Source of the DNA: Candidatus Blautia intestinigallinarum
Lineage (GTDB): Bacteria; Bacillota; Clostridia; Lachnospirales; Lachnospiraceae
Assembly (NCBI GenBank): GCA_019112635.1
Contig: DXIX01000027.1
Span: forward strand, 1 to 64,000
Reading direction: 5' to 3'
Length of the DNA stretch: 64,000 bases
The position numbers were made by a program, and so were the translations under genes. Shown in pieces: positions 2,386 to 6,249 of the stretch (within the stretch, counting starts at the first letter, position 1; each line of letters opens with the position of its first letter). The notes beneath the pieces were generated by a model, which was not told where the DNA came from, searched no databases, and saw only the letters and a program-made list of their open reading frames with translations.

Positions 2386-5300
2386 ATGAAAAGGAGAGTA
2401 TTAAGTTATGTTTTGGCAGCGGCGATGGTTCTGACTTTGTGTCCTTCGGGGATTTCTGTTTTGGCTGAGACGAAGAACAACCAGACAGACAATGAGCAGT
2501 TGGAGAAAGCTTCGGAAATGAACACTTCGGAGAAGTCTGAGCCGGGCTCTATTGAGAATTCAGGAGAAGAAAATGCGGGGATAGAATCTGAGCAAGAGTC
2601 ATCGGGAGAGTCTGACGATACTTCAGAAGAAGATTCCAGTCAGGCATCCACACAGACTCCGGAGGAGAGCTTGACGGAATCGGAAGAAGGCTTCGAGGAT
2701 TCTTCGAAAGATTCAGAAGTATCCTCTTCTTCAGAGGAACAGATTTCTCAAGAATCGGAGAATTCGGCTGATGAGATTACTATTTTTCACACCAATGACA
2801 TTCACGGGGCTTTTGCAGGAGAAGCTGAAAGCGGGATTGGCATTGCTAAAGCAGCTGCTTTGAAAGAGGAGACTGAGAATGCGCTGCTGGTGGATGTTGG
2901 CGATGCGACACAGGGGGGTTCGCTGATGTCATCTACCAAAGGTGCTGCGGCTGTCGATATTATGAATGCTGCGGGTTATGATTTGATGGAAGTCGGGGAG
3001 CATGATTTTGATTATGGATTGGATCAGCTGCTGTCGAATATTAACTTGGCCGAATTTCCTGTGATAGCTTCCAATGTTTACCGGGATGGAAGTCCCTTAT
3101 TTTCTGGCACAACCAAGACGGAGAATAATGGTGAGAACACGGTGGTTACAGTGGGAGATAAAAAAATTGGATTTTTTGGATTACTCACAACAGACACTGA
3201 CAGCTTGCCTGCCCCGGATACAGTAGCTAGTCTGGAATTCTGTGAGGAAGTGGAAACCGCAAAAGAACAGATTGACTGGCTGGAAGATCAGGGTGTGGAC
3301 GCAATTGTGGCTTTATGCCATATGGGAGACCAGTCTGAGAAATGCACCAGTTCTCAACTGGCAGAGGCACTGACAGGAGAATATCAGGATAAAGTAGATG
3401 TGATTCTGGACGGCCACAGCCATTCCCAGGAAAATAAAGTAGAAAACGATATCTTGATTGTCCAGGCGGGGAGCAGTCTCTCTAATTTGGGTAAAGTCAC
3501 TCTGCGTTTTCTGGAAGGAGACCAAGTAGAAGCAGAAGGGGAGCTTCTGACAGAACAGGATCTTGCCGATGTAGTTCCGGATACGGAGGTTGAGGCTAAG
3601 ATCGCCAAAATCCAGGAAGCAGGTGAAAGCTCTGAGGTAAAACATACAATTACTTATGTCTTAAATGGGGGAACGAATCACCCGGATAACCCGGAAAGCT
3701 TTTTGGAAAGTGAGACGGTGAAATTAAAAGATGCATCAAGAGAAGGATATCGTTTTCTGGGATGGTACCGGGATGAAAAATTAAAAGATTCCTGTGATCA
3801 GATTCCAGAGGGGACGACTGAGAATATTACTCTTTATGCAAAATGGGGAAAAGACCGGCTGGAACCAAACGACACCTGGAAGAATGCAGTAAAAATCCGG
3901 ATACCTTCCAAGACAGAGAGTTATATTTCTTCGGAAAAAGATGTGGATTATTTTAAATTTACGGTGAGCAAAACAGATCGAATTGATATCCGTCTGACAC
4001 AGCCGGATGATACGAATGTATATTATGATTTGATTCTGTATGATGAAGAGCAAAATGTGCTTCAGAAATCTCAGATGAACCTGGATCAGTCTATTGTGAA
4101 GACATTGGAGAAAGGAACTTATTATATTCGTATTGCTTCTTTGAATGGTCAATATTCCAGAGAAGCTTATACATTGAGAGCCAGCCGTATTGCCAGTTCT
4201 TCACTGGATTTTTCCGAGCAGAATATGTTGACACAGTCTTTGCATCCCGACTCCCCGTACGCATATACAAACACGGGAAGTTTGAATTCCGGAGGCAATT
4301 ATCTGATGTCTACCGCCTATTTTGCCAGATGGAGCGGGCCGGTAATGGAGGAGGAAGATCCGTATCCGGAGTATACGTTGTCCGGAGGTGGCTTTACGCC
4401 ATGGGAGGACGACATCTCTGTCTTGACAGAATTAGAGCCCAAATATCATATGCAGAACGCAATCTGGCTTCCAGAGCGGGAAGATGCATTGGACAATGAC
4501 TATATCAAATCTGCAATCTACACTTATGGAGGTGCGGATGCTTACTATCTGGATGCGGCAAGATTCAGAAATGAAGAGACGGCTTCCATTTATGTTCCGG
4601 AGCTTACTCAGGACGAGATCAGACAGTATGGGGCAGGCGGTCATGAGATTACTTTGGTTGGCTGGGATGATCATTACTCCAGAGAAAATTTCGATGAGGT
4701 GCAGCCGCCAGGGGACGGTGCATTTGTGTTCAAGAACAGCTGGGGCTCTGACGGAGGAGAAGATGGATATTACTATCTGTCTTACTATTCAGCAGATTTG
4801 CTTTTGAATCCTGGAGCTCTGTATTTCATGGAAGAGGGAACCGATAATTATAATACGATTTATCAGTATGATCCGATGGGATATGTGGGGTCTATAGCGG
4901 AACGTGAGACTGGCAGTATTTATGGGGCAAATGTATTTACTGCGAAGTCAGATGAAGCACTCAGAGCAATTTCGTTTATCTCTAATATGGAGAATGTGAA
5001 CTATGAGTTGTATGTGGAAATTGGCGGAGAACAGCAGAAAGTAGCAAACGGCAGCGTGAGATATGCCGGATATAAAACAGTGCGTCTGCAAAATGAAATT
5101 CCTTTGCAGGAAGGAGAAGAATTTACAGTAATTCTCAAATTGAGCAGTGATTCCGGCATAGTCCGGATGCCATTGGAATATCCGCTGGCGGGTTATAGTG
5201 AGAAAGCAGACAGCGAGGAAGGAATCAGCTGGATTTCCAATGATGGAGAAAATTGGGAAGATCTCAGTAAAGTTCAGGCTAATCCTTGCATTAAGGCATT

Positions 5301-6249
5301 TACTTATGACGCAGATCAGGGAAGTACCTTCGCAGAGGGTGTGAATGCTTCTGTGAATATCAATAATGGAACAATGAAGGAGATCCATCCGGAAAGTTTA
5401 GAAATGGCAGAACTTGAAGAAGCAGAAAGCAGTCAGGGAGCTCAGGAAGTCACAATGACAGAGGATGGAAAGGCTCTGGGAGCTCAGGAAGCAAGGCTGA
5501 AGACAGAAGTATCTCAGGAGGAAGCTCCGATCAGTGGATTACCGTCCCAGTTTGATCTCAGAGAGATCGATGCGGTGACTCCAGTGAAAGACCAGTATGA
5601 TTTGGGTGCATGCTGGACTTTTGGTGCGATGGGATCTGCGGAGAGTATTCTTCTGAGAAATGAAAATGCTTCTTACAGCTATCCTCTGGATATTCAGGTT
5701 CAGGGAGAGAAGACCATCGTTTTGACAGAAGAAAATCCTACATTTTCTTATTCTGCAGCGGCAGAGTTATCGACAAATGTGGCAGCGACGGACGTTATTA
5801 CCTGGGAGCTGACTGGCGATCTGGATAGTGTAGAGCAGGCGGAACAACCGCTTCGAAGTTCAAATGGGGAGAGTATTTTGCTGTTTACTGCGAAGAAAGC
5901 GGGGACTATCACGCTCACGGCGGTGAGCGCGGCTGATGAGACAAGAAGTGATACCATTATGATTACGATTCAGGATGAGAGAACCCAGGTCACTCCCACA
6001 CCGGAAGACACGCCTGAGCCAAAAGACACCCCGCAGATTAGCCCTACACAGTCTCCTGAAAAAACAGTGACACGGATTCCTGTGAGTACGAAGAAACCTT
6101 CCAGGACAGAGGAAAAAGATACTTCTTCGAAAGCAAAAGATCCAGCCAAGACAGGAGATGAGACTCCTGTGGAGACATGGATGGGATTGTTAATCTGCGC
6201 CATGGCAGCGGCAGGCGCGGTTGTCATTCGAAGAAGACAGAAGCCGTGA
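2386..6249 (+). CDS. Giant surface protein: metallophosphatase-like domain plus permuted papain-like (C1A) protease
   Basis: Secreted, probably wall-attached protein of 1287 residues. Order: signal peptide (1-27); Ser/Glu-rich stretch (30-130); 5'-nucleotidase-type metallophosphatase domain (132-415) with HTNDIHG (H135, D138, H140), VGDATQGG and GHSH (H344, H346), but GEHD (E205) in place of the usual GNHE; InlB-type repeat (420-488); pre-peptidase C-terminal-like domain (492-600); the His/Asn half of a C1A protease with H753 (GGHEITLVGWDD) and N784 (FKNSWG); a lectin-like stretch; then the Cys half, LPSQFDLRE...VTPVKDQYDLGACW, with Q1070 and C1076; an Ig-like domain; a Pro/Thr-rich stalk; PAKTGDE, a membrane segment and RRRQKP. 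The protease halves are in reverse of normal order. The C-terminus resembles a sorting signal without canonical LPXTG. The nucleotidase C-terminal substrate domain is missing. Function unknown; proteolysis at the cell surface is the likeliest role. Confidence 0.85.
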   Translation: MKRRVLSYVLAAAMVLTLCPSGISVLAETKNNQTDNEQLEKASEMNTSEKSEPGSIENSGEENAGIESEQESSGESDDTSEEDSSQASTQTPEESLTESEEGFEDSSKDSEVSSSSEEQISQESENSADEITIFHTNDIHGAFAGEAESGIGIAKAAALKEETENALLVDVGDATQGGSLMSSTKGAAAVDIMNAAGYDLMEVGEHDFDYGLDQLLSNINLAEFPVIASNVYRDGSPLFSGTTKTENNGENTVVTVGDKKIGFFGLLTTDTDSLPAPDTVASLEFCEEVETAKEQIDWLEDQGVDAIVALCHMGDQSEKCTSSQLAEALTGEYQDKVDVILDGHSHSQENKVENDILIVQAGSSLSNLGKVTLRFLEGDQVEAEGELLTEQDLADVVPDTEVEAKIAKIQEAGESSEVKHTITYVLNGGTNHPDNPESFLESETVKLKDASREGYRFLGWYRDEKLKDSCDQIPEGTTENITLYAKWGKDRLEPNDTWKNAVKIRIPSKTESYISSEKDVDYFKFTVSKTDRIDIRLTQPDDTNVYYDLILYDEEQNVLQKSQMNLDQSIVKTLEKGTYYIRIASLNGQYSREAYTLRASRIASSSLDFSEQNMLTQSLHPDSPYAYTNTGSLNSGGNYLMSTAYFARWSGPVMEEEDPYPEYTLSGGGFTPWEDDISVLTELEPKYHMQNAIWLPEREDALDNDYIKSAIYTYGGADAYYLDAARFRNEETASIYVPELTQDEIRQYGAGGHEITLVGWDDHYSRENFDEVQPPGDGAFVFKNSWGSDGGEDGYYYLSYYSADLLLNPGALYFMEEGTDNYNTIYQYDPMGYVGSIAERETGSIYGANVFTAKSDEALRAISFISNMENVNYELYVEIGGEQQKVANGSVRYAGYKTVRLQNEIPLQEGEEFTVILKLSSDSGIVRMPLEYPLAGYSEKADSEEGISWISNDGENWEDLSKVQANPCIKAFTYDADQGSTFAEGVNASVNINNGTMKEIHPESLEMAELEEAESSQGAQEVTMTEDGKALGAQEARLKTEVSQEEAPISGLPSQFDLREIDAVTPVKDQYDLGACWTFGAMGSAESILLRNENASYSYPLDIQVQGEKTIVLTEENPTFSYSAAAELSTNVAATDVITWELTGDLDSVEQAEQPLRSSNGESILLFTAKKAGTITLTAVSAADETRSDTIMITIQDERTQVTPTPEDTPEPKDTPQISPTQSPEKTVTRIPVSTKKPSRTEEKDTSSKAKDPAKTGDETPVETWMGLLICAMAAAGAVVIRRRQKP

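Follow-up and report, generated by a model that had tools for sequence, protein, structure and literature searches.

How does a papain-type cysteine peptidase come to be encoded with its two halves in reversed order? The question was raised by an open reading frame (ORF) at positions 2386-6249 of a 64,000-nucleotide stretch of Candidatus Blautia intestinigallinarum (assembly GCA_019112635.1, contig DXIX01000027.1, positions 1 to 64,000), referred to here as the window. C1A peptidases carry the segment with the nucleophilic Cys ahead of those with the catalytic His and Asn. An earlier note, made from the letters alone, had read the opposite order in this ORF and had offered three options: a true circular permutation, a domain that pairs with another copy, or a rearranged and perhaps inactive gene. 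We favored the first. Very probably, as judged from sequence comparisons and predicted structures, the protein arose by natural circular permutation of a Cwp84-like C1A peptidase together with its lectin-like domain, and it is most likely a working surface cysteine protease. The points in its favor were a clade of 17 proteins with the same order, its presence in complete genomes, the retention of the catalytic residues, and confident structural models.

The swapped order of the peptidase halves in the window protein was confirmed. Pfam family PF00112 (Peptidase_C1) matched it in two separate and reversed pieces, profile positions 123-203 at 4492-4782 (E = 3.7e-6) and profile positions 1-44 at 5539-5667 (E = 2.0e-7). 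Both pieces exceeded the family cut-off in a profile search of the whole genome, and the lectin-like domain (PF18560, Lectin_like; residues 825-973) sat between them. The order in one frame was the His/Asn half, the lectin-like domain, a linker at the position of a propeptide, and the Gln/Cys segment. The reading of the ORF and the PF00112 pieces agreed with the residues listed in the earlier note: the DFSEQ motif (starting at residue 608), His753 and Asn784 came first, and Gln1070 and Cys1076 followed 286-292 residues past Asn784; the frame, described as uninterrupted, was intact over 2386-6249. When the protein was compared with Cwp84 (4ci7, 4d59) by phmmer, the His/lectin part scored 74.9 bits and the Cys part, very weakly, 4.6 bits, in the opposite order. 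The Cys segment alone matched papain and cathepsins L, S, and K (E from 1.9e-6). This ORF was the sole Peptidase_C1 gene found in its own assembly (2.1 Mb, 75.5% complete, 37 contigs). A reversed order of this kind was far beyond chance expectation.

The search for relatives with the same order, which the earlier note had proposed as a check, returned 16 further proteins that share the swap. Thus, 17 distinct permuted proteins were read, the window's included, six of them from complete or single-contig assemblies (G001, G164 with 8% contamination, G1138, G914, G841, and Claveliimonas bilis). A protein search of 145 genomes matched 89. Within the genus, 48 of the 64 genomes surveyed matched, and the permuted order was present in four (G000, G044, G001, and G059). 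The match was colinear over 1-685 in G044 (62% identity) and over 6-495 in G001, with the final residues past its stop, and G059 was permuted as well when its ORFs were read. Throughout the rest of the genus survey, every separately listed Cys row preceded the His row; 26 loci of this kind (L046-L071) were read, and all of them were Cys-first. Both orders occurred in the same genome in G001 and G059, each of which carried a canonical gene too.

A scan of the genome collection gave at least 594 pattern matches, 566 of them encoding a relative, from which the best 80 loci were kept. Among these best 80 of 566 loci, six were permuted (8 ORFs), 73 were Cys-first, and one (L127) had no Cys segment. 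The permuted carriers were Candidatus Ruminococcus avistercoris, Claveliimonas bilis (complete chromosome), Faecalicatena orotica, an iMGMC Eubacteriales bin, and RUG342 and RGIG8037 (each with two tandem genes). The family draw (E up to 1e-30, three candidates scored per genome) contained at least 3 permuted genomes in 397, the window's own included, with G319 and G164 being new. At E = 1e-100, 3 of 392 genomes passed in the order draw (the window's own, G727, which was the iMGMC contig again, and the Cys-first G102) and 6 of 391 passed in the class draw (the window's own, G1138, G914, and G841, all permuted, and the Cys-first G1055 and G1024). The counts of the draws are lower bounds because of these E cut-offs. 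No viral carrier was found in one scan of viral contigs. Eleven permuted proteins showed 32-63% identity to the window block, and L194 showed 73% over the His and lectin columns.

Two kinds of unusual locus appeared in these searches. L073 and L079 each carried two tandem permuted peptidase genes, and both copies of a locus paired together in the tree. L127:1656-3050, on a Euryarchaeota bog contig, encoded a His/Asn part and a lectin-like domain in an ORF in which no Cys segment could be detected.

Where was the chain cut? Pfam was searched with 13 of the 16 further permuted proteins, and in all 13 PF18560 stood right after the His/Asn part, as in the window protein. Pfam reports the best stretch per protein only, so the cut position was pieced together from several proteins. 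The best Peptidase_C1 stretch lay after the lectin-like domain in five (L033, L076, L190, L192, and L193), covering profile positions 1-41 to 1-45 (1-45 in L192). It lay before this domain in the remaining eight, ending at profile positions 203-213 and starting at 45 (L191), 46 (L074), 48 (L079), 65 or 67 (L034, L072, L073, and L075), or 160 (L035). The counterpart of the first-encoded part spanned profile positions 46-205 in L074 and 45-205 in L191; in L035 and L079, just one Peptidase_C1 stretch passed alone. The cut lies at approximately profile position 45/46, in the loop behind the catalytic helix.

The new start of the peptidase ([DF][FLY]SE) was located shortly downstream of a PPC, Big_2, or FN3-like domain, approximately 20 residues past the PPC domain in the window protein. 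At the other end, the ORFs L035:1111-5334 (G059) and L034:2700-7028 (G001) stopped 15-16 residues past the Cys, which makes the nucleophile helix the extreme C-terminus, and no domain was seen in three frames downstream of either stop. The other permuted proteins carried an immunoglobulin (Ig)-like stretch or repeats behind the Cys segment. A hidden Markov model (HMM) of the Cys segment, built from four permuted proteins, found one real copy in each of the 17 proteins, always past the lectin-like domain.

Two possible traces of the rearrangement itself were rejected. A second or remnant Cys segment, as a duplication intermediate would have, did not agree with the one real Cys match per permuted protein: no second segment scored positive in the 17 sequences, with the first ORFs of L073 and L079 covered from the locus start onward (extra matches in L192, L075, and L073 were below 0 bits), and none of the ORFs with a His match listed in the surveys had two Cys matches. 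The 9-base repeat AATGCTTCT, placed by the earlier note at 5344 and 5667, is indeed present twice, with its first copy at 5344 but its second at 5665. As a rearrangement footprint it carries no weight because 114 different 9-mers occur at least twice in the ORF (mean of 55 and maximum of 76 in codon-shuffled copies) and because it was absent from the relatives L033 and L072 and single in L194.

The stretch separating the lectin-like domain from the Cys segment was 60-92 residues long (120 in L191, in which the HMM match to the lectin-like domain was short). The earlier note had likened this stretch to a pro-region. Its position is that of a propeptide, and the propeptide motif was found in the relative L075, but it was not recognizable in the window protein. 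The strict canonical pattern NPxF...GxxPxP occurred in 17 of 160 canonical ORFs (some genes fetched twice) and in 0 of 17 permuted proteins. When a profile was made from those 17 canonical rows, the linker of L075, in which the motif NPxFxxY ... lGxIPs could be recognized, scored 26.1 bits, and one linker of L079 matched weakly (10.1 bits); the best of 850 shuffled linkers scored 6.1 bits. The other 15 linkers, including that of the window protein, were not outstanding with this profile, and one iteration added none. The linker may still cover the active site.

Across the 17-row alignment the catalytic residues were retained, with Gln, Cys, and His present in all 17 proteins and Asn in 16. When the window protein was compared with L033, L072, and L194, identity was 69%, 71%, and 79% in the Cys segment, 74%, 75%, and 72% in the His/Asn segment, and 43%, 41%, and 41% in the linker. 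This pattern resembles that of a single enzyme with both of its halves under purifying selection. L190:1914-5015 was a diverged permuted member in which Asp replaces the catalytic Asn and the C-terminal end carries choline-binding repeats.

Trees were built from the His/Asn and lectin columns only and, because the Cys columns were left out, were blind to the permutation. In the first, quick tree, a branch set the permuted rows apart from all others (12 vs. 129 rows; Shimodaira-Hasegawa-like approximate likelihood ratio test [SH-aLRT] = 84). In the second tree, one branch split 17 from 55 rows (ultrafast bootstrap = 98, SH-aLRT = 83; 98% of 200 bootstrap trees). Because all 17 permuted proteins fell on one side of one branch, a single origin of the permutation is the best reading. 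The trees were unrooted, and a single permutation presupposes that the canonical order is ancestral, which is the natural assumption given that in the first tree this order extends across archaea and several phyla of bacteria.

The fold was predicted with AlphaFold2 for two of the proteins. The model of the window block (residues 602-1096, 127-row alignment) had a mean predicted local distance difference test (pLDDT) of 84.8 and a predicted template modeling score (pTM) of 0.85. Its Cys segment reached a pLDDT of approximately 90-97 until its last residues, and its linker (block residues 382-443) fell below 50. Because this alignment was partly misaligned, a second model, of the G001 block, was made from permuted rows only (pLDDT 82.8, pTM 0.87, Cys segment 84-94); it placed a short helix within the linker. 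The Cys segment was confidently placed in both models, which gave no verdict on how close the triad comes together, the point that the earlier note had wished a prediction to settle. In Foldseek, Cwp84 was the top match of both models (TM score 0.74 and 0.75 by target length), followed by cathepsins, including the cathepsin B heavy chain (1huc_B), among other unrelated matches.

A single circular permutation would account for this arrangement as follows. The ancestral order would have been propeptide, Cys segment, His/Asn segment, and lectin-like domain. The chain would have been re-cut in the loop behind the catalytic helix, near profile position 45/46, and the old ends fused, with the propeptide becoming the linker between the lectin-like domain and the Cys segment; the new junction, between the last residues of the lectin-like domain and the first of the propeptide, is plausibly a short bridge. 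The Cys segment would then fold back in cis on the His/Asn part and rebuild the Gln/Cys/His/Asn site. Opening the loop behind the catalytic helix would yield precisely the order that was observed. We infer from these comparisons that the linker is the former propeptide, that assembly occurs in cis, and that the enzyme is active and located at the surface.

Several results weigh against this reading. In the 127-row alignment, a lectin Cys stood on the catalytic-Cys column in 53 of 65 canonical His-lectin rows, and letters stood on the His column in 16 of 50 canonical Cys fragments. The G001 model rests on 17 rows, and its five models span pLDDT values of 75.0-82.8. Foldseek aligns in chain order, so its match says nothing on the placement of the Cys helix. 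The propeptide motif was clear in one of 17 linkers and suggestive in one more, L190 combines the Asn-to-Asp change with a long tree branch, and support for the clade was good but below maximum. The first ORFs of L073 and L079 were cut at the locus start, with their upstream part outside the data.

Among the other explanations, a misassembly or chimera in a metagenome bin might be suspected, given that the genome of the window is incomplete and fragmented. The same order in 16 other proteins, including those from the six complete or single-contig assemblies, excludes an assembly fault as a general explanation and refutes it for the family; its probability is practically nil. Independent permutations at the same loop, as in other branches of the papain-like superfamily, would fit the varied N-terminal neighbors (PPC, Big_2, and FN3-like) and a possibly favored site, given that permutation has displaced the helix in other papain-like families as well, according to a survey (PMC10318531). 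All 17 proteins nevertheless lay on one side of a branch calculated without the Cys columns in 98% of the bootstrap trees, and repeated origins are very unlikely.

The remaining two alternatives concern how the protein works. The halves could pair in trans, the Cys segment docking on the His/Asn half of another molecule in a domain-swapped dimer or from a partner gene, and both the tandem permuted genes of L073 and L079 and the long, largely disordered linker of the model are consistent with this. Yet the other permuted loci had a single copy within the stretch fetched, the linkers look long enough for assembly in cis, and both proteins gave high-pTM models as single chains, the only form modeled. 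We consider pairing in trans distinctly improbable. A degenerate, inactive peptidase retained as a binding module would suit its lectin-like and Ig-like neighbors, and the Asp of L190 is what such decay might look like; on the other side, Gln, Cys, His, and, but for L190, Asn persisted across a divergent clade, and the Cys segment was conserved about as strongly as the His/Asn segment among near relatives. Given this conservation, a dead rearranged gene is unlikely, as is an inactive binder in general.

How does the favored circular permutation relate to known enzymes? The window protein resembles C1A peptidases in sequence, with both PF00112 pieces over the cut-off and a Cys segment that matches papain and cathepsins, and it contains the catalytic Gln, Cys, His, and Asn. 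Its linear order does not place Cys before His and Asn, and the stretch at the propeptide position is internal rather than N-terminal. Because of the different linear order, it was filed as a permuted C1A derivative and not as a standard member. PF18560 directly behind the His/Asn part is the arrangement of the Cwp84-like group (PF00112 + PF18560; 4ci7, 4d59), which has the same three parts and the same kinds of catalytic residues and was the best sequence and fold match. The order of that group is propeptide, Cys, His/Asn, and lectin, whereas that of the window protein is His/Asn, lectin, linker, and Cys. No match to Pfam families of the NlpC/P60, LRAT, YiiX, or PPPDE types was found in the window protein (E up to 0.1) or in 13 relatives (E up to 0.001).

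In two-chain cathepsins, the mature enzyme is nicked proteolytically in the loop behind the catalytic helix, so this loop tolerates a break. There (cathepsin B, 1huc_B) the chain is broken by the nick, whereas the window protein owes its order to a change in the gene. The permuted NlpC/P60 enzymes (LRAT-like and YaeF/YiiX-like; 3kw0) form a separate sequence family and are not known to carry a lectin-like domain or a propeptide within the join. As far as the accessible text on them goes, they have the Cys C-terminal of the His, likewise the case in the window protein, and permutation sites distant from the active site (PMC3142127). In PPPDE1-type proteins a helix is relocated by permutation, as it is here, and LupA has been named as a circular permutation (PMC10318531, available part). 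PPPDE and the other permuted papain-like families are distant by sequence, whereas the window protein is approximately 25-43% identical to the canonical rows. The same 2023 survey of the papain-like superfamily, in the part available, reports permutations in other branches, states that cluster I, which includes C1, keeps all core elements, and mentions none in its section on papain and cathepsins (PMC10318531); the character string "permut" is absent from the main text of a 2023 paper on how the papain family arose (PMC10380794). No permuted C1A peptidase of the papain family proper was found in the literature, subscription papers being mostly outside the search. Permuted papain-like folds are already known (NlpC/P60-type, PPPDE, and LupA).

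C1A peptidases are among the best-studied proteases. A permuted clade within the Cwp84-like group, with both orders in G001 and G059, would amount to a natural experiment on zymogen permutation, showing how an accessory domain and a propeptide can bridge the former ends of a fold. Such enzymes may be annotated as truncated or broken because profile searches report two fragments. The shared swap appears to mark an enzyme family rewired in nature and not an error of sequencing.

With the former propeptide serving as an internal linker, as proposed here, activation would split the protein and not trim an end. Tentatively, if the linker is cut on activation, as in Cwp84, two chains might result, held together solely by the peptidase fold: a wall-anchored chain with the Cys, and another with the His/Asn part, the lectin-like domain, and the N-terminal nucleotidase or leucine-rich repeat module. 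Activation or later dissociation would then free the N-terminal cargo from the cell surface, a possible but doubtful built-in switch for cargo release.

Features of the permuted peptidase ORF in the window (positions in nucleotides; residues are those of the encoded protein).
Feature	Positions	Strand	Basis
Whole ORF, 1287 residues; permuted peptidase within a multidomain protein	2386..6249	+	ATG start, no internal stop
Metallophosphoesterase half of 5'-nucleotidase, residues 132-347	2779..3426	+	Pfam PF00149, E = 1.6e-7
Flg_new / List_Bact_rpt repeat, residues 420-486	3643..3843	+	Pfam PF09479, E = 6.1e-14
PPC domain, residues 519-584	3940..4137	+	Pfam PF04151, E = 1.6e-6
First-encoded peptidase part (DFSEQ, His and Asn segments), residues ~606-806	4201..4803	+	PF00112 profile 123-203
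Catalytic His753	4642..4644	+	H in 17/17 permuted proteins
Catalytic Asn784	4735..4737	+	N in 16/17; Asp in L190
Cwp84-type lectin-like domain, residues 825-973	4858..5304	+	Pfam PF18560, E = 9.3e-42; Foldseek Cwp84
Propeptide-position linker from lectin-like domain to Cys segment, residues 974-1050	5305..5535	+	pLDDT <50; lowest segment identity
Cys segment (PSQFDLRE strand, oxyanion loop, catalytic helix), residues 1051-1096	5536..5673	+	PF00112 profile 1-44
Oxyanion-hole Gln1070	5593..5595	+	Q in 17/17
Nucleophile Cys1076	5611..5613	+	C in 17/17
Ig-like-looking tail right behind the Cys helix	5674..5985	+	Letters read beside relatives
C-terminal anchor (KTGD, hydrophobic stretch, RRR), residues 1255-1287	6148..6246	+	TIGR01167 LPXTG_anchor

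The window protein is most likely both secreted and a working surface protease, and its N-terminus resembles a signal peptide as read from the letters. Wall anchoring is probable; TIGR01167 scored 15.6 bits at the C-terminus, slightly under its cut-off of 15.9. The Ig-like-looking tail gave no Pfam match in the window protein itself. The NCBIfam 5'-nucleotidase models matched the protein partially and under their cut-offs. At 3427-3642, L033 and L072 carry the 5'-nucleotidase C-terminal domain (PF02872), which the window protein lacks; in the alignment with L033, approximately 300 residues are gone in frame there, and the metallophosphoesterase half alone remains. Upstream, a perfect 18-base inverted repeat with a 3-base loop (2328-2366) lies between a symporter-like gene and the peptidase gene and is terminator-like.

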